64,000 nucleotides of DNA from Neobacillus sp. OS1-2. Its GTDB lineage: Bacteria; Bacillota; Bacilli; Bacillales; Cytobacillaceae. Shown here piece by piece: positions 27,792 to 40,684 of the stretch. A program made the translations under genes and the position numbers. The notes under the pieces are model-generated. The model was given only the letters and a program-made list of their open reading frames with translations, was not told the origin of the DNA and did no database searches. The stretch is from contig NZ_CP133265.1 of NCBI RefSeq assembly GCF_030915505.1, forward strand, positions 2,384,001 through 2,448,000, in the 5' to 3' direction. Every line of letters starts with the position of its first letter. The first letter of the stretch is position 1.

Positions 27792-28220
27792 ATGAGACCA
27801 AAGCCAAATATGGATGAGATAAGAGAGAAGACGGAAGAGCTTTGCCAATTGATTTTAGATCAGGAAGCATTTCCGAAATTAAGAGCAATGATTACAGATT
27901 TTTATGCGGATGAAGCAGCTATGTCTTTATATAATGAAACTCTTGAAAAGCAGCGTGCCCTTCAACAAAAACAACAGCAAGGATATCAACTTACAAGAGA
28001 AGAAATCAATATTTTTGAAGAAGCTCGTGAAAAGATTTACTTAAATCCAGTTTCACGAGACTACCTATATGGATCTCAAGAATTAGATGCGATTCAGGAT
28101 TTAGTGATTAAATATGTGCTGAAAACGATTGAACTTGAAAGAATTCCAATGGAAGAAGACCTCGAAGACCAAGGATGCGGATGTGGCGGAGGCGGTTCTT
28201 GCGGATGTGGCGGACATTAG
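27792..28220 (+). CDS. YlbF/YmcA family regulator with Cys-rich tail
   Basis: A 142-residue helical protein of the YlbF/YheA/YmcA group. Residues 1-115 are two long helices with heptad-like character (LRAMITDFYADEAAMSLYNETLE, REEINIFEEAREKI). The C-terminus is GCGCGGGGSCGCGGH, four cysteines in glycine, similar to the cysteine tail of B. subtilis YlbF. YlbF, YmcA and YaaT form a complex with Fe-S clusters that modulates RNase Y and sporulation or competence. This copy may be an extra paralogue. A GGGGAGG site precedes the ATG, and an intrinsic terminator lies 60 bases after the stop. Confidence 0.75.
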   Translation: MRPKPNMDEIREKTEELCQLILDQEAFPKLRAMITDFYADEAAMSLYNETLEKQRALQQKQQQGYQLTREEINIFEEAREKIYLNPVSRDYLYGSQELDAIQDLVIKYVLKTIELERIPMEEDLEDQGCGCGGGGSCGCGGH

Positions 28221-28627: not shown

Positions 28628-30055
28628 TTGATCATCGCATTTTTGATCGCTATTATTGGAATTATTCCGATCGTATTAGCGATATGCGTTTTAAAAATAT
28701 ATAAAGGCTCGGAATTAGCATTTGCTTTATTTCTTTATATGCTCTCCATCTGTTTTTGGCAATTAGACATTGCCGTTTTATATTTGAAGGGTGTCCTTTC
28801 AAAAGAATTAATCACTTGGCTTTTTAGATTCTTTAGGATTGGGCCAACTTTTATGATTCCTCTTGTATTTTATTTAGCGCATGTTCTAATCAATAAACAT
28901 ACTACCAATATTAAAAATCAATCATTTTATAAATTTCAATCTTCTATTTTTAATCATAAAGTTTTTTTATTCTTAGTAGGATGGAGCTTTATTGTCTATC
29001 TAATAAATATGACAAGATTCGGAATTATCGGGGTGAAAGAGGTAAAAGTCGTTACCTCAGATCTTTATTTCTATTTTCCAGAGTATGGGCCGTTGCAATT
29101 TTTGTATCTTATTCATTCTAGCAGTTTTCTAATTCTAATTATTTTTACTTTTATTATTTCTAAACAAATTCAAAACCTCTCTTTAAGAGATTTTTTAGGA
29201 ACATTTTCTTCTTGCAGCTTGTTGCTGTTTATTTTTGGATTATTCAATTTTATACCTGGAACAGGAGCATTATTTAGCAGTTTAGGGACCATTATTTTTT
29301 CAGTTATTATTGTCTTTTCGTTCGTTAAATTGAATACGATATTGACTGTAAATTATAATCGTTTAATGGAACGTCAAAAGAAACTAGATAATGCGGGCAG
29401 TCTTACTGCTAGTTTAGTGCATGAAGTTAAAAATACGCTACAAATTATTAACGGATATTCGAAATTATTAGGAGAATCACATTTGCCTACTGAAGGTAAA
29501 AAGATGACCGTAATGATTCAAAAAGCGGCTAATCAAACGGAGGAATTACTGAATAATTACACAAAATTATTAAAGTATAAATCCATTGATTACAAAATGG
29601 TGGATTTGAATGAAATCATAGAACAATCCATTGAAATAGCAGCAGAGTTTTTACAAAGGAATGCTGTAGAAGTTTTTTTTGACAAAAAATATACAACATT
29701 AAAAACCTATGCCAACGATGTGTATTTAAAGCAAGTATTTTTCAATTTGATTAAAAATAGCTCGGAGGCCTTTTCGAAAGAAAGATCCGTAAGAAATATC
29801 ATGATTTCTACCGATATTCAAGTGGATAGAATTTTTATTCATTTTATTGATACCGGAAAGGGAATACCTGCGGACCATTGGAATAATATTTTTGATCCTT
29901 TTACGACATCTAAAAATGAAGGTTTAGGATTAGGTTTACCATTTGTAAAAAACATCATTCTTGAACATCGAGGAGATATAAACGTGGTGGATAGCAGTTC
30001 AAAAGGAACTCATATACAAATTATCTTACCCCAGTATTATTTTAGTAACCTTTAA
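28628..30055 (+). CDS. membrane-bound sensor histidine kinase
   Basis: A 475-residue kinase with a TTG start, 8 bases after GAGTGGTG. Residues 1-240 contain about seven hydrophobic helices with little extracellular domain, like peptide- or lipid-sensing kinases. The dimerisation box is SLVHEVKNTLQIINGYSKLL with His265. The ATPase domain shows FFNLIKNSSEA (N box), DTGKGIP (G1), FDPFTTSKNEGLGLGLPFVK (F and G2). No response regulator gene is adjacent, so it is an orphan in this window and may feed a phosphorelay as KinB does in B. subtilis. The GyrI-like gene follows 52 bases later. Confidence 0.85.
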   Translation: MIIAFLIAIIGIIPIVLAICVLKIYKGSELAFALFLYMLSICFWQLDIAVLYLKGVLSKELITWLFRFFRIGPTFMIPLVFYLAHVLINKHTTNIKNQSFYKFQSSIFNHKVFLFLVGWSFIVYLINMTRFGIIGVKEVKVVTSDLYFYFPEYGPLQFLYLIHSSSFLILIIFTFIISKQIQNLSLRDFLGTFSSCSLLLFIFGLFNFIPGTGALFSSLGTIIFSVIIVFSFVKLNTILTVNYNRLMERQKKLDNAGSLTASLVHEVKNTLQIINGYSKLLGESHLPTEGKKMTVMIQKAANQTEELLNNYTKLLKYKSIDYKMVDLNEIIEQSIEIAAEFLQRNAVEVFFDKKYTTLKTYANDVYLKQVFFNLIKNSSEAFSKERSVRNIMISTDIQVDRIFIHFIDTGKGIPADHWNNIFDPFTTSKNEGLGLGLPFVKNIILEHRGDINVVDSSSKGTHIQIILPQYYFSNL

Positions 30056-30539: not shown

Positions 30540-30634
30540 AAAGAGAAGGTTTATGAAAAATCGTAAAAAGACAAACTAACGTGCCTAGTCATTATCAGCC
30601 ATGTAGAATCCCGTCTAATTTTTGTAAAATCCTA

Positions 30635-30670
30635 TAGAAGGCAACTCACCGGTGGTGAAGTTGCCTTCTA
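30635..30670 (-). terminator. terminator after the peptide/radical SAM operon
   Basis: TAGAAGGCAACT and AGTTGCCTTCTA form a perfect 12-base stem around a 12-base loop. On the minus strand ATAGGATTTTAC follows, so the T tract is short. Confidence 0.65.
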
Positions 30671-30681
30671 CAATTTTATGC

Positions 30682-30768
30682 TTATTTTATATTACCAGGG
30701 ACTGACTTCATGATTTTCCCAGTAACTTGGTTGTTAACTGGGGATGTAGCTGGGCGTAATACACGCAT
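30682..30768 (-). CDS. 28-residue peptide, candidate RiPP precursor
   Basis: A 28-codon gene that starts 49 bases after the radical SAM gene stop, on the same strand. The site GAAAGGTGGTGAG stands 5-8 bases before its ATG. The peptide begins MRVLRPATSPVNNQ and ends in KSVPGNIK; it is basic, has three prolines, two V-N/T-N type segments and no cysteine. It has no signal peptide or hydrophobic helix. A terminator follows 12 bases after its stop, so the unit is radical SAM gene, peptide gene, terminator. A short peptide in this position is the usual form of a precursor for a radical SAM maturase; the modification cannot be predicted. Confidence 0.5.
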   Translation of the reverse strand: MRVLRPATSPVNNQVTGKIMKSVPGNIK

Positions 30769-30817
30769 GTAACTCACCACCTTTCATGATTGATGTATAT
30801 GAGTCAACTAGCCACAT

Positions 30818-32146
30818 TTATTGAGTACTATTTTTCCAAATTAGGTTTAATACTTTTTTAATATTTCGCTTTTCATAAGGACATGGCCTTTCTCCAGTTC
30901 TCATCCGATACAAAGGACAATGATTCCCTTGGCATACAGGCCGATAGAAACAGGATTGGCAAACGGCATCTGTTTCCTCCCCCGATGTAACCCAACTGGC
31001 AATTTTATCATAATCAAGCTCTAGATGACCGTCCTCATGTATTTTTCCCACTTGATTAAATTCCTCATGTAGCGAGAGGGTGCACTTGTATAATTGTCCG
31101 TGAGAGCTGACTACTAATGAGTGTGGTTTTGCCGCATAGCAGACCGACGCGGATGGCATCAAGGAATCTGCTATCATGGAACTCATACCGAATCCTTGTG
31201 TGATCGCTTCATCTGTCAGTTCCCAGATCTTTTTATTAGCCATTGTACGGCTGCAAACAGGGATGTCATCATCATTTTTTCCACCCCATTGACCAACTGG
31301 TCGAAATAGAATACCAAAACGCTTATCATCTGCAAAATGGTCTTTTAAAAAATGGGTTAATTCGGAAGTCGCTTGTAGATTGTCTTCGTCAAAATTGGTT
31401 CGAATCGTAATGTCAAATGAGCCGGGGACGTCTTTAATGGCGATTAGATTCTCGATGATGGTATCAAATGTTCTCCCGCCGCCTGTTAAGTGTCTTCGGC
31501 GATCGTGAACCTCTCCTACTCCGTCGACTGTGATCATAAATTGATTTATATTCCAAGAAAGTAATCGCTGGAACGTGTCCTTTGTTAATAGATACCCATT
31601 TGTAACAAGATCACAAGAGTACTGGACATGGTTTTCCTTTGCAATCGCTAAAAAAGTCTCGGATAGCTCCTCGATAACGTCTAAGGAAATTAATGGTTCA
31701 CCGCCAAACCAACTAATATGCAGGTCAGTTAAACTCGCCGCCTTTTCTTGGACAAATGCTTTTAACCCATTAATGACGGTTCGATTCATTTTTCCACGTT
31801 CAAACGTTTCGTAACAATAGGTACATCGGAAATTGCAAGCTTCGGTAGGCATTAGCACGAGATGCATGGTGTCTGTTCGATGCAGTGACTGATGAAGAAA
31901 TTGTGCCCTTCTCTTTTCATCCACATGGCTAGAGACTAAAAAACCATTCGTATGTAAATCTTCTTGTATTTCGTTTTCTAATAAATCGGTGCCTGCTCTT
32001 TTTAATGAAGATAGGACGGCCTGTTTCTCTTGATCTGAAAAATAAGTAATCGCACCCGTATAACTATTAAATAGCACAACGCCATTGTCATCTGTGTGTG
32101 TGATAGCATTAAATCTTGATGGAACATATCTGTTCTTGTTTTCCAT
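30818..32146 (-). CDS. radical SAM/SPASM peptide maturase-like enzyme
   Basis: A 442-residue protein. The radical SAM cluster motif CxxxCxxC is Cys104, Cys108 and Cys111 (ACNFRCTYCYETF). The core continues with HISWFGGEPLI and TNGYLLTKD. The C-terminal SPASM domain has seven or more cysteines, including SVCYAAKPHS, GQLYKCTL and the run CQSCFYRPVCQGNHCP, ready to hold two auxiliary 4Fe-4S clusters. The first 90 residues (FNSYTGAITYFSDQEKQAV...) look like an N-terminal peptide-recognition or PqqD-like region. SPASM enzymes of this layout install crosslinks in ribosomal peptides. No exporter is adjacent. The ATG has a weak ribosome site. Confidence 0.85.
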   Translation of the reverse strand: MENKNRYVPSRFNAITHTDDNGVVLFNSYTGAITYFSDQEKQAVLSSLKRAGTDLLENEIQEDLHTNGFLVSSHVDEKRRAQFLHQSLHRTDTMHLVLMPTEACNFRCTYCYETFERGKMNRTVINGLKAFVQEKAASLTDLHISWFGGEPLISLDVIEELSETFLAIAKENHVQYSCDLVTNGYLLTKDTFQRLLSWNINQFMITVDGVGEVHDRRRHLTGGGRTFDTIIENLIAIKDVPGSFDITIRTNFDEDNLQATSELTHFLKDHFADDKRFGILFRPVGQWGGKNDDDIPVCSRTMANKKIWELTDEAITQGFGMSSMIADSLMPSASVCYAAKPHSLVVSSHGQLYKCTLSLHEEFNQVGKIHEDGHLELDYDKIASWVTSGEETDAVCQSCFYRPVCQGNHCPLYRMRTGERPCPYEKRNIKKVLNLIWKNSTQ

Positions 32147-32299
32147 TTTTCACAAACTTTCATTAAACATAATTAGGTAGACCAAAATCATTATAAGGAT
32201 ATCCTTCAGCATGGTCAGTGAGTTCAGTCACTCTGTAGAGCATAACCAAGTGGTTCTGTTATGATTCATTGTTGATTTTCGTATAGGTATGAGAATTCA

Positions 32300-32483: not shown

Positions 32484-32626
32484 ATTTTCCAAAAACAGTG
32501 AAATCAGTATTCAGTTATAATAGATCCAAATAAATAAAGAATTGGATGAAAATGTTAATCGAGCTATAATAGGTTTAAATGATAAAAAAAGAGAGTAATA
32601 GAATGATAAAAGGGGGGAAACCATTT

Positions 32627-34687
32627 ATGATCCCAGCAAAAATAGATTCCAGTTCAATCATGATTAATAGAGATAAGGGGTTAGAATCTATTATCAATTG
32701 GTTCGATCAGCATAAACAATCATTCTATCCACTTGGTTGGTCCTATCTTAGGAATCAGCAGCAAATGGAAGAGCTATTTTATCGCTCTATTATAAAAGTC
32801 CACAAAGAGTTGTCTCGATTTAAAGGTGAAAAAGCATTTGAAACGAGGGTGACATCCCTATTTATACTTATTTGCCGGGAGCTTACTGAAAGTTTACAGG
32901 CTCCGGAGGATAGTGGGTCGCGTCAGGATTTATTTCAGGCACTTGATCAATTGGAAGAGCATCAGAAAGAAGCGATCGTACTTACATATGTAAAAGGAAT
33001 CTCTTGGGAGGACGCAGCCCAGCTCCTCAACGTTTCTGTGGAAGAACTGAAGGATCTTTTATTTTCGGGAATCCAGTCCCTTCGGAAAGAATGGGGGGAT
33101 GGAACACCCTTTAATGGCTGTAAGAAGTATCAAAGAGTTTATATTGATTACGTAGAAAGAACCTTGGATCGGCTGAGAAAGATTGATTTAGAGAGACATA
33201 TTTACCATTGTCAGGACTGTCAGGGGGATTTGGCAACATTCCAGGATGTCGTGTTAAATCTTACTGAAAGGATTGAAGAGTTCCACGTGCCACCTGATTT
33301 CATGGAGAATGTCAAAGCTAAGCTGGCAGAAAAGGAAAAGCTCAGACAACGAAAGAACAAGAAGCGTAAAAGAATAGGGATTGTTTTTGCAAGTGTTATG
33401 GCACTATTAATAGGTATAGAAGTCTTTACAAAGTCTTTTACCAACCTCTACTATACATGGACGGAAGAGAATCAAGAGTTGCGCGCCTTTCTGGAACAGG
33501 ACCTGGGTGAAAGGCTTAACCTGGAAGCGGAAAGCGATGGGGTGAAAATTAAGATTAAGAGGGCGATTGCGGATGATATACAGACGCTTGTTTTTTATGA
33601 AATAGAAGATACTAAGGAAGACAATCAATATAGGATAAATGTTGATGAAGGGGTTAAGGTGGAGAATGAACGTAAAATCATGAACCATGAAACATATTCA
33701 AGGTACGGGTCCCCTGAGCATACATCGGATGTAAATAAAAAAGACAAGAACGTGTATCATGGGAAGATTAGTCTGCCGCCACTCTCCATTGACAACGGGA
33801 CAATCAAACTAAAAATTTCAAGGCTTCAGAAATTGATTCCTCATTCTTTTAAACAGAATGCTTATAGGATTTTCGAGGAAAAGGAATATGGATTTGGGGA
33901 ATGGAACTTCGACATCCCTGTAACAAAACAGCCCTCTATCGATTATGGATTGAAGGGAGAAACAGAAGTGGAGGGAATCCCGGTTCGATTTGATAAGCTA
34001 ACCGTTGCCCCAACAGCGACGGTTCTGCAATATAGTATTCATAATGACCAGTCAGAAAAGCAGGTAGAATATCTCCATTTTAACAATCTAGTAGTGAACA
34101 ATAAGAAAGTGAAGTCTGATTTGAGTGGCGGCTCTTTCCTAGGGTCACCTCAAGATGGGAATTGGATTACGTCTCAGTCGCAATTTGATCCTCTTTTTGG
34201 AGAAAGGCCGAAAGAGGTAAACGTTCAATCCGGCTCAATCCATTTAACTGTTGAAGACCAAAAAACTATCGAACTGGATGCTACTCAGGAATATCCTCAA
34301 ACCTTTGAATATGCAGGCAGTATCATCTCTATCGACAAGGTGGAAGTGGGACTACCGACCAATGTTGTCATAAGCAATTATGAAACAAAGAATCGAGCAT
34401 ATGAGTCACTCCAATTCCAGATTGTGGGTGAGGATGAAAATGAAGCTAGTTTCTTCGAGATGAACTCTGAAGGCGTGATCGTTGACAAAAATGGGATGGA
34501 ATATGATATGAATAATATTCCTGTACCATATGAAGAAATTGACCAACCCCGGTATTTCGTTACCGTTCAAAGCATAAAGTTTGACGGTAACAACGATGGA
34601 GAGAGAGTGATCCCTAAGAGGTTGGAGATTTTTGGATATAGCGAAATGAAATATTCGGATGATGATGTAAATATACAACTGGAATAA
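32627..34687 (+). CDS. fused sigma-like / zinc anti-sigma-like / DUF4179-type membrane protein
   Basis: A 686-residue protein. Residues ~25-95 resemble sigma region 2 (EELFYRSIIKVHKELSRFKGEKAFETRV) and ~105-155 sigma region 4 (HQKEAIVLTYVKGISWEDAAQLLNVSVEEL). A zinc motif HxxxCxxC follows (His191, Cys195, Cys198), then a basic stretch, one transmembrane helix (~249-267, IGIVFASVMALLIGIEVF) and a large extracellular region with the beta-rich pattern of DUF4179 proteins. Normally sigma and anti-sigma are separate genes. Here the sigma part is degenerate, without the DxxQEvF and core-binding residues seen in the 15.5-kb sigma factor. The ATG at 32627 follows AAGGGGGG; an ATG at 32579 lacks a good site. 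Confidence 0.7.
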   Translation: MIPAKIDSSSIMINRDKGLESIINWFDQHKQSFYPLGWSYLRNQQQMEELFYRSIIKVHKELSRFKGEKAFETRVTSLFILICRELTESLQAPEDSGSRQDLFQALDQLEEHQKEAIVLTYVKGISWEDAAQLLNVSVEELKDLLFSGIQSLRKEWGDGTPFNGCKKYQRVYIDYVERTLDRLRKIDLERHIYHCQDCQGDLATFQDVVLNLTERIEEFHVPPDFMENVKAKLAEKEKLRQRKNKKRKRIGIVFASVMALLIGIEVFTKSFTNLYYTWTEENQELRAFLEQDLGERLNLEAESDGVKIKIKRAIADDIQTLVFYEIEDTKEDNQYRINVDEGVKVENERKIMNHETYSRYGSPEHTSDVNKKDKNVYHGKISLPPLSIDNGTIKLKISRLQKLIPHSFKQNAYRIFEEKEYGFGEWNFDIPVTKQPSIDYGLKGETEVEGIPVRFDKLTVAPTATVLQYSIHNDQSEKQVEYLHFNNLVVNNKKVKSDLSGGSFLGSPQDGNWITSQSQFDPLFGERPKEVNVQSGSIHLTVEDQKTIELDATQEYPQTFEYAGSIISIDKVEVGLPTNVVISNYETKNRAYESLQFQIVGEDENEASFFEMNSEGVIVDKNGMEYDMNNIPVPYEEIDQPRYFVTVQSIKFDGNNDGERVIPKRLEIFGYSEMKYSDDDVNIQLE

Positions 34688-38561: not shown

Positions 38562-38710
38562 TTTCATGCGCCGCAGACCAGGGCACTTTTGCTTTTCATT
38601 TTCCACCTAATTGTCATAATCTTTACAAAAAAACTTCATCCAATCGATTATAATTGGAAATGGATGGATGAATGTGAAGTTATTCACAATTAAAAAGGAG
38701 GAGTCCACAT

Positions 38711-40684
38711 ATGAGTTATCATCATTTATTAGGAAGCGGCAAAATAGGGAATGTAACGTTGAAAAACAGAATTGTCATGCCGGGGATGTGTACCAATTTG
38801 GCTGGTCCTACCGGTGAGATCACTGATCACCAAATTCGTTATTATGAAGAAAGGGCCAAAGGGGGAACCGGGTTAATCATTACGGAGTTTACCAGTATTG
38901 ATTATGAATTAGGAAAGGGTGCCGTAAACCAGTTAAGAATAGATGAGGATCGCTTTGTCCCGGGATTTCATCGTTTGGCGAATGCCGTACATAAATATGG
39001 GGCCAAAATCTTTGTACAGCTGCACCATGCAGGAAGAGAATCCAATTCCATGTTGACGGGTGGTAAACAAATTGTTGCTCCGAGTCCAGTGACATGTGAT
39101 GCAATCGGGGAAGAACCAAGAGAATTAACTACCATAGAAGTAAAAGACTTGATTCAAAAATTTATTATGGGTGCCTATCGATGTAAGCTTGCCGGAATGG
39201 ACGGTGTGGAACTTCATGGTGCACACGGCTACTTGATTAACCAATTCTTAAGCCCTTATACCAATTTACGGACCGATGAATATGGTGGTAACTTTGAAAA
39301 CAGAATGAGATTTTTAGAGGAGATCGTCCAAGGGATCAAACAAATATGTGATGAAGATTTCCCTGTCACCGTACGATTAAGTGTAGATGAATTTGATGAA
39401 CATGGAATCGATGTGGAGGAAAGTAAAAAAATTAGCCGTTATTTAGAAAAGATCGGTGTGGACGGGCTGCATGCAAGTGCAGGCAACTATAATTCTATGG
39501 ATAAAGTAATCGAATCACCCTTATTTGAGCAGGGGTGGAGAGTCTATCTAGCAGAAGCAATTAAACAAGAGGTGCATATCCCAGTGATTTCGGTTGGGGC
39601 CATTCGCGAACCCCAATTTGTTGAGTCCATATTAGTAGATGGAAAAGCAGACTTTGTTGCTATTGGACGAGGCCTACTTGCAGATCCGGAATGGGTTCGT
39701 AAGGTAGCAGAGGGAAGAGAAAAAGAAATTAGGATGTGTATTTCCTGTTTACGCTGTGCCTATTCAACTGCACAGATTGAGTGTTCAATCAACGTAAGAG
39801 CAGGACGGGAACTGGAGTTTGATGAGTTTAAGAGGATTGAGGAAAAACGTAGAGTTGTAATCGTTGGTGGCGGCCCAGGAGGAATGGAGGCTGCAAGGGT
39901 GCTGTCATTAAGAGGATACGAGGTAACCTTGTTTGAAAAGGACCATAGACTTGGTGGACAGTTGAATCAAGTAACCGAGCCGGTGTATAGAAAGAAAATG
40001 AATTGGTACATTGATTACTTCGTCAATGAAATGGAACGGTTAAAAGTGGATATCCGACTAAATACGGAGGCTACTATTGAAGAGGTGGAATCATTACATC
40101 CATATGCTGTTATCCTGGCAACGGGAGGTCAACCATTTATTCCTCAAATCGAGGGACACGATCTAGCGAATGTATGTCATTATAAAGAGGTAAAAATGGA
40201 GCAAAGACAATTTAATCGTCAACATATTGCTGTTTTAGGCAGTGGAATGGTTTGTCAAAGTACCGCTCGTAGACTTGCAGAAGAAGGGAACCAAATCACT
40301 TTCATTGAAGTACCTACTAAGTCAGGAAAGAAAATAAGTCCAGCAACACGCAAACGGCTGTTCAATCGATTAGAATTATTGGATGTTACGATCATGACAG
40401 GTCATAAAGTAAAGAAAATTGTTCCGAATGGTCTTATTCTCGAAGAGAAAGATTCAGGAAGACAGACAGAAGTAGACGTTGATCAGGTTGTCATTGCCAT
40501 GGGGGTAATGCCTTATAATCCGTTAGAAGCATCATTTAAAAAACAGTTCGACAATGTCTTTGTAATAGGTGATTCAGCAGGTTATATTTCCATCGCTGAT
40601 GCCACTAGAGGTGGGTTTGAAACGGCATTTAATCTTGAATCATTGGTTACAAGAATGAAGAGGGAGGTAGTAGAGACCTTCTAA
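38711..40684 (+). CDS. 2,4-dienoyl-CoA reductase-like FMN/FAD/4Fe-4S oxidoreductase
   Basis: A 657-residue enzyme of the FadH/TMADH group. Residues 1-330 form an Old Yellow Enzyme barrel (VKNRIVMPGM-type start, HHAGRESN, LHGAHGYLINQFLSPYTNLR). A 4Fe-4S motif follows with Cys343, Cys346, Cys349 and Cys358. The C-terminal half is a FAD/NAD domain (VVIVGGGPGGMEAARVL near residue 383). This architecture reduces enoyl- or dienoyl-CoA or related unsaturated compounds using NAD(P)H. AAGGAGG precedes the ATG. It is a single gene between two terminators. The substrate is not predicted; the fatty-acid genes at 48-51 kb suggest lipid degradation. Confidence 0.87.
   Translation: MSYHHLLGSGKIGNVTLKNRIVMPGMCTNLAGPTGEITDHQIRYYEERAKGGTGLIITEFTSIDYELGKGAVNQLRIDEDRFVPGFHRLANAVHKYGAKIFVQLHHAGRESNSMLTGGKQIVAPSPVTCDAIGEEPRELTTIEVKDLIQKFIMGAYRCKLAGMDGVELHGAHGYLINQFLSPYTNLRTDEYGGNFENRMRFLEEIVQGIKQICDEDFPVTVRLSVDEFDEHGIDVEESKKISRYLEKIGVDGLHASAGNYNSMDKVIESPLFEQGWRVYLAEAIKQEVHIPVISVGAIREPQFVESILVDGKADFVAIGRGLLADPEWVRKVAEGREKEIRMCISCLRCAYSTAQIECSINVRAGRELEFDEFKRIEEKRRVVIVGGGPGGMEAARVLSLRGYEVTLFEKDHRLGGQLNQVTEPVYRKKMNWYIDYFVNEMERLKVDIRLNTEATIEEVESLHPYAVILATGGQPFIPQIEGHDLANVCHYKEVKMEQRQFNRQHIAVLGSGMVCQSTARRLAEEGNQITFIEVPTKSGKKISPATRKRLFNRLELLDVTIMTGHKVKKIVPNGLILEEKDSGRQTEVDVDQVVIAMGVMPYNPLEASFKKQFDNVFVIGDSAGYISIADATRGGFETAFNLESLVTRMKREVVETF

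Follow-up and report, generated by a model that had tools for sequence, protein, structure and literature searches.

Introduction

Streptide, rotapeptide and other streptococcal radical SAM RiPPs are derived from small cysteine-free substrates of SPASM enzymes. In the rotapeptides a Thr-Gln ether is formed, i.e., SPASM-type chemistry proceeds without cysteine or aromatics, for which there are few precedents. RRR, TQQ and WKG streptococcal RiPPs are named in PMC8326336, where the N-terminal domain of the SCIFF maturase CteB is also described as an RRE. According to the text of PMC9062424, TvgB forms cyclopropylglycine on TVGG repeats; that paper lists 22 unreported SPASM pathways, some of which are described in its text.

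A preliminary description of DNA from Neobacillus sp. OS1-2 (contig NZ_CP133265.1, positions 2,384,001 to 2,448,000) had proposed a candidate minimal RiPP system, consisting of a radical SAM/SPASM enzyme and a 28-codon frame. The whole stretch of 64,000 nucleotides that was analysed is called the window below, and coordinates refer to it. The conservation of the pair reported here supports that proposal. Judged from sequence comparison, the locus is very likely a two-gene cysteine-free RiPP unit which would be induced by oxygen limitation and which lacks a dedicated exporter or protease.

The enzyme

30818..32146 (-): radical SAM/SPASM peptide maturase, 442 amino acids; putative RRE-like N-terminal domain (residues ~6-90), radical SAM core (~92-330) and SPASM domain (~336-426)

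The CxxxCxxC motif (Cys104, Cys108 and Cys111) and the cysteine-rich SPASM domain that had been read from the sequence were found in this frame. The radical SAM site C104-xxx-C108-xx-C111 and the SPASM cysteines C336, C355, C396, C399, C405, C410 and C422 are invariant in 42 homologues. The match to PF04055 scored 56.7 bits. With NCBIfam, 71 families matched the enzyme; TIGR04463 (rSAM_vs_C_rich) was the top family with 214.4 bits against a cut-off of 525, followed by Clo7bot with 192 bits and CefB with 186 bits (cut-offs of the top three, 525-600), and none of the matches listed reached its cut-off. The SCIFF maturase family TIGR03974 gave 79.8 bits (cut-off 425), and the score of the sulfatase maturase was far below those of RiPP maturases.

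An AlphaFold model was obtained from the 42 homologues with a pLDDT of 90. Its best structural match was CteB (Z 27.2 over 388 residues, aligned from residue 11); ChlB was also among the best matches, TigE followed the model from residue 3 (Z 24.0), and anaerobic sulfatase maturases matched the core only (Z 26). The N-terminus of the model consists of strands, then helices. No Pfam match to an RRE/PqqD profile was obtained in the enzyme; from the likeness of the model to CteB we infer that residues 1-90 are RRE-like.

In a tree of 47 enzymes, all peptide-bearing Bacillota enzymes formed one clade (support 100/99), with the enzymes from Clostridia (Proteiniclasticum) nested beside those of Kurthia and Rummeliibacillus. 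Outside this clade the short frames adjoining related enzymes are different, and several end in cysteine: Nocardiopsis and relatives possess an upstream peptide with the end I-D-F-[GN]-C, and two more distant enzymes of the host's family adjoin short frames with NCNSC and NCNCIK ends. If these neighbouring candidate frames are precursors, the absence of cysteine from its peptides sets the Bacillota clade apart from the enzymes around it.

Two of these outgroups may be described here. In Nocardiopsis, Actinomadura and Streptomonospora (loci L063-L068, L070 and L080), a conserved peptide of ~24 residues, MQEFEEIITESxxxDEVSVIDFGC or similar, is encoded 5' of the related maturase and could serve a sister RiPP family of the Actinomycetota as precursor. 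In Calidithermus (L071/L072), the candidate precursor MQAKQIRWIVKPVQASRPGTRPNTNVNCLC was found ~145 bases 3' of the enzyme homologue; its leader-like start resembles the Bacillota peptides, and its end, NCLC, contains cysteine.

The peptide gene

30682..30768 (-): putative precursor peptide, 28 residues, cysteine-free, MRVLRPATSPVNNQVTGKIMKSVPGNIK, recognized by its frame and homologue conservation; leader-like MRVLRPA, then a variable linker, then the near-invariant core region GKIMKSVPGNIK
30777..30784 (-): ribosome-binding site AAAGGTGG of the peptide gene; equivalent strong sites are present in homologous loci
30625..30678 (-): long stem-loop at the end of the two-gene unit, probable terminator by fold energy

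As described before, the peptide frame lies on the strand of the enzyme, is separated from the enzyme stop by exactly 49 bases and has a strong ribosome site. This site is situated 8 bases 5' of the ATG. The hairpin which was said to close the unit is a real fold according to the calculation (-27.7 kcal/mol, z = -7.2), but it was not among the terminators called by a scan in which the stem had to be followed at once by a T-run.

To find homologues of the enzyme, a collection of 84,980 genomes and a set of 193 genomes from the host's family were used. The lack of a conserved small frame behind homologous enzymes had been named beforehand as an argument against the proposal; the same short frame does follow the enzyme in all 39 Bacillota loci (Bacilli and Clostridia) with at least 45% enzyme identity, within about 110 bases 3' and with a strong ribosome site ahead. 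The motif likewise adjoins the enzyme in each of the 20 carriers among the 193 genomes, where ten further matches to the pattern were unrelated frames.

The compact pattern of the peptides is M[RK]xxRPA...GKIxK[STA]VPGNL[KN]; written in full for 36 distinct peptides, with few exceptions, it reads M-[RK]-x-x-[RK]-P-A, a variable middle, and [ST]-G-[KR]-[IVL]-x-K-[STA]-[VA]-P-G-[NSH]-[LI]. Lys21, Pro24 and Gly25 are constant in all 36, and Ser22 is replaceable, by Thr in Kurthia and by Ala in Proteiniclasticum. Cysteine is absent from 35 of the 36, the exception being a residue in the variable linker of the Rummeliibacillus suwonensis peptide, which agrees with the earlier view that the peptide does not resemble precursors of sactipeptides or ranthipeptides. 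Aromatic residues are not conserved: Trp3 is confined to the leader of some Paenibacillus peptides, and Tyr13 and His20 occur singly.

Conservation was also evident at the level of codons, as had been asked of a true gene. In the 36 distinct coding sequences, minority letters at codon positions 1/2/3 numbered 219/135/479, and in the last twelve codons 49/27/204; the median pairwise dN/dS was 0.17, or 0.19 for pairs with dS < 1.5. The peptide frame is a real gene under purifying selection at the codon level. A chance frame is ruled out, since its sequence, its position and its codon pattern are all conserved in many genera.

The promoter

In the Bacillus Fnr regulon the regulator site is TGTGA-N6-TCACA, and about -41.5 is the position of Crp/Fnr proteins acting as class II activators. 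The following elements, new relative to the preliminary description, precede the enzyme gene:

32217..32232 (-): Fnr/Crp-type palindrome AGTGACTGAACTCACT, centre at -41.5 from the predicted transcription start
32190..32195 (-): -10 hexamer TATAAT of the predicted promoter

The pattern WGTGA-N6-TCACW is present without mismatch, centred at -41.5 when the start is set from the TATAAT hexamer (32190-32232), when 0.28 matches with up to two mismatches would be expected in the window. The predicted -35 sequence, CTGACC, is poor, as expected of an activated promoter. When upstream regions were compared, Neobacillus and Robertmurraya showed a palindrome [AT]GTGA-N6-TCACT 83-90 bases 5' of the enzyme start, followed after 21-22 bases by a perfect TATAAT, so that the palindrome centre falls at about -41.5. 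The palindrome promoter was found with 0-1 mismatch in 13 of 14 Bacillaceae loci (L026-L038, L045) and in Ammoniphilus, and these matches outscored all 60 shuffles of each region; in three Paenibacillaceae loci (L052, L060, L073) the palindrome, also with 0-1 mismatch, is accompanied by a weak -10. No Fnr-type site was found upstream in Kurthia, Rummeliibacillus, Schinkia, Calidifontibacillus, Neobacillus paridis, Alicyclobacillus and Proteiniclasticum; thus, Fnr-type control is not universal.

The host's genome of 4.7 Mb contains three perfect matches to the promoter pattern, including the enzyme promoter. Among the genes preceded by a site with one mismatch, profile matches identified nirB, modA, flavohaemoprotein (hmp), HemQ, a bacterial globin, YwiC and an Fe-S repair protein; an Fnr regulon would be expected to contain such genes. 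The scan listed 43 matches versus 17 for a reversed control pattern, so that some of the 43 are surely due to chance. Three Fnr paralogues with a C-terminal CxxCxxxxC are encoded by the host. All 20 carriers possess an Fnr homologue, but so do 181 of the 193 genomes overall, and its co-occurrence with the unit is therefore uninformative by itself. Going by the pattern, the regulator is probably Fnr, among several Crp/Fnr paralogues. Elsewhere in the window (38612-38715, +), two more Fnr-like sites with two mismatches each are situated close together.

Distribution and neighbourhood

The distribution of the enzyme-peptide pair is patchy (20 of 193 genomes of the host's family). The nitrate reductase gene narG was detected in 15/20 carriers versus 53/173 non-carriers (Fisher p 2.5e-4), and within the host's genus in 9/10 carriers versus 25/51 others (p 0.03), both p-values being optimistic since they are inflated by the shared ancestry of the genomes. 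None of the four Robertmurraya carriers has narG, which rules out a strict link to nitrate reductase as a universal feature. The unit is probably under the control of oxygen limitation, with nitrate respiration common, not required.

The statement that no exporter adjoins the unit was correct. When neighbouring frames of 40 loci were clustered by BLAST, no conserved exporter, protease or immunity gene was found, and no neighbour of any kind was conserved across genera. In several Paenibacillus loci the unit is surrounded by genes related to anaerobiosis, namely those for YwiC, a repair protein of the ScdA type and an MFS protein resembling nitrate transporters, together with nrdD; some Neobacillus loci have nrdEF/IH, which were recognised by eye. 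A ribonucleotide reductase as functional partner, suggested by these nrd genes, is not general and was rejected. Near the pair in Paenibacillus ehimensis (L059, 7935-9479), a NarK-like MFS transporter carries a fused PAS domain at its C-terminal end.

In the window, a histidine kinase gene with a membrane-spanning N-terminus (28628-30055, +) adjoins the unit. Even close relatives differ in their neighbourhood: in genome G111, whose enzyme is 86% identical, the kinase gene is located on another contig and the sigma-factor gene still adjoins. A frame of 702 residues in the window (32579-34687, +) has sigma-70 region 4 and DUF4179/DUF5643 (anti-sigma-like) domains, an apparent sigma/anti-sigma fusion which is nearly full length in several relatives. 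A small protein with the glycine/cysteine tail CGCGGGGSCGCGGH is encoded at 27792-28220 (+).

Discussion

The following sequence of events may be envisaged. Upon falling oxygen, an Fnr-type regulator would bind the palindrome at -41.5 and turn on a bicistronic transcript, from which the peptide would be translated by means of its own strong ribosome site. Conservation and predicted fold suggest that the enzyme could bind the leader M[RK]xxRPA through its putative RRE-like domain and would then modify the C-terminal region GKIxK[STA]VPGNL. The product may be used in the cell, or released via general proteases and exporters, since neither protease nor exporter is encoded beside the unit.

As to the chemistry, a thioether bond is excluded for this peptide by the lack of cysteine, and aryl cross-links by the lack of a conserved aromatic residue; what remains are bonds or changes on aliphatic residues. 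Lys21, Pro24 and Gly25, owing to their invariance in 36 variants, could perhaps be the likeliest participants. Conversion of serine to formylglycine, as in the sulfatase-like motif S-x-P-x-[RN], is unlikely as the sole chemistry, since the serine is replaced by Thr in Kurthia and by Ala in Proteiniclasticum. The near-invariant core would point to one conserved job rather than to a rapidly diversifying bacteriocin; this job might be that of a signal, a cofactor or a protein partner when oxygen is limiting and, often, nitrate is respired. Taken to its full extent, the proposal would be that a lineage of thioether-type SPASM maturases, having changed over to a cysteine-free substrate, creates a new bond or change at Lys, Pro or Gly (for example, a lysine side chain replacing the cysteine thiol) and thereby a near-invariant, Fnr-controlled internal signal or cofactor for anaerobic or nitrate-respiring metabolism. 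In this extended form it is offered as a tentative suggestion.

Other explanations were considered. A bacteriocin-type RiPP, released by a general exporter against competitors under oxygen limitation, would be consistent with the patchy distribution, the changing neighbourhood and the cationic peptide core, but the core is almost constant across genera and neither immunity gene nor exporter is nearby, which makes this role rather doubtful. The peptide could also be a small protein partner or regulator, with the enzyme maturing another target, e.g., a sulfatase-like protein; near-invariance of the peptide, the lack of exporter and protease, and the core fold shared with anaerobic sulfatase maturases would suit this arrangement. 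The enzyme, however, carries at its N-terminus an additional domain like that of RiPP maturases and scores best with them, and related enzymes also adjoin other short frames, so that a partner function appears unlikely.

An atypical member of the sactipeptide/ranthipeptide class would be suggested by the best NCBIfam scores, which belong to maturases of cysteine-rich peptides, albeit far under their cut-offs. A thioether needs cysteine, and with a single precursor containing one, in its linker, such a product is refuted; membership in this class is thus very improbable, although the enzyme lineage may be shared with it. Least of all is it to be expected that the small frame stays untranslated and belongs to a regulatory RNA or a terminator: the hairpin 3' of the frame is strong, but it lies outside the frame, and the codon-position pattern, the low dN/dS and the strong ribosome sites make this notion practically negligible.

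A radical SAM RiPP pair is of a known kind; the peptide-enzyme family appears to be undescribed in the libraries and the open-access literature searched. The preliminary description had recognized no known precursor family in the peptide, and in line with this, neither the peptides of the family nor the outgroup short peptides matched NCBIfam. A search of open-access literature for SVPGN beside SPASM terms gave no match, and nothing was found there for TIGR04463 and Clo7bot or for ChlB/ChlA; a prior mention may exist in subscription papers or in the supplement of PMC9062424.

If the peptide is modified, a substrate without cysteine or a conserved aromatic residue would imply enzyme chemistry other than the familiar formation of thioether and aryl cross-links. 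That the core hardly varies suggests that the peptide serves the cell in some way other than by killing competitors, and few RiPPs are known with such a role. The Fnr-type promoter suggests a condition for expression and ties a RiPP to oxygen-limited physiology. With two genes and 28 residues, the unit is small and should be quick to test.

Comparison with known systems

The three-domain layout of CteB (PDB 5WGG/5WHY), with N-terminal RRE, radical SAM core and SPASM, is also that of the enzyme, in which the RRE is putative; CteB is also its best PDB sequence match (70.8 bits), with an identity of only 21%. The substrate of CteB is a cysteine-rich peptide, the SCIFF precursor having six cysteines in forty-five residues, whereas the Neobacillus peptide has none. 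The nearest named families are the TIGR04463, Clo7bot, CefB, geopeptide and PapB maturases, of which the first three align over almost the full length; most of them carry names taken from cysteine-rich precursors, unlike the cysteine-free peptide found here.

TigE (PDB 8VPO; 17% identity to the enzyme) and TvgB are radical SAM enzymes with cysteine-free, non-aromatic substrates, as is proposed for the Neobacillus enzyme. The TVG system, however, has a repeated core motif and a cluster of five genes, in contrast to a single non-repeated core and two genes in the Neobacillus unit. The streptococcal core motifs TQQ, WKG and RRR are missing from the Neobacillus peptide. We know of no RiPP which is a direct class II target of Fnr. 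With respect to the Bacillus Fnr regulon, the site of the unit, its spacing to the -10 hexamer and the presence of Fnr paralogues are as at the host's other promoters related to nitrate and NO.
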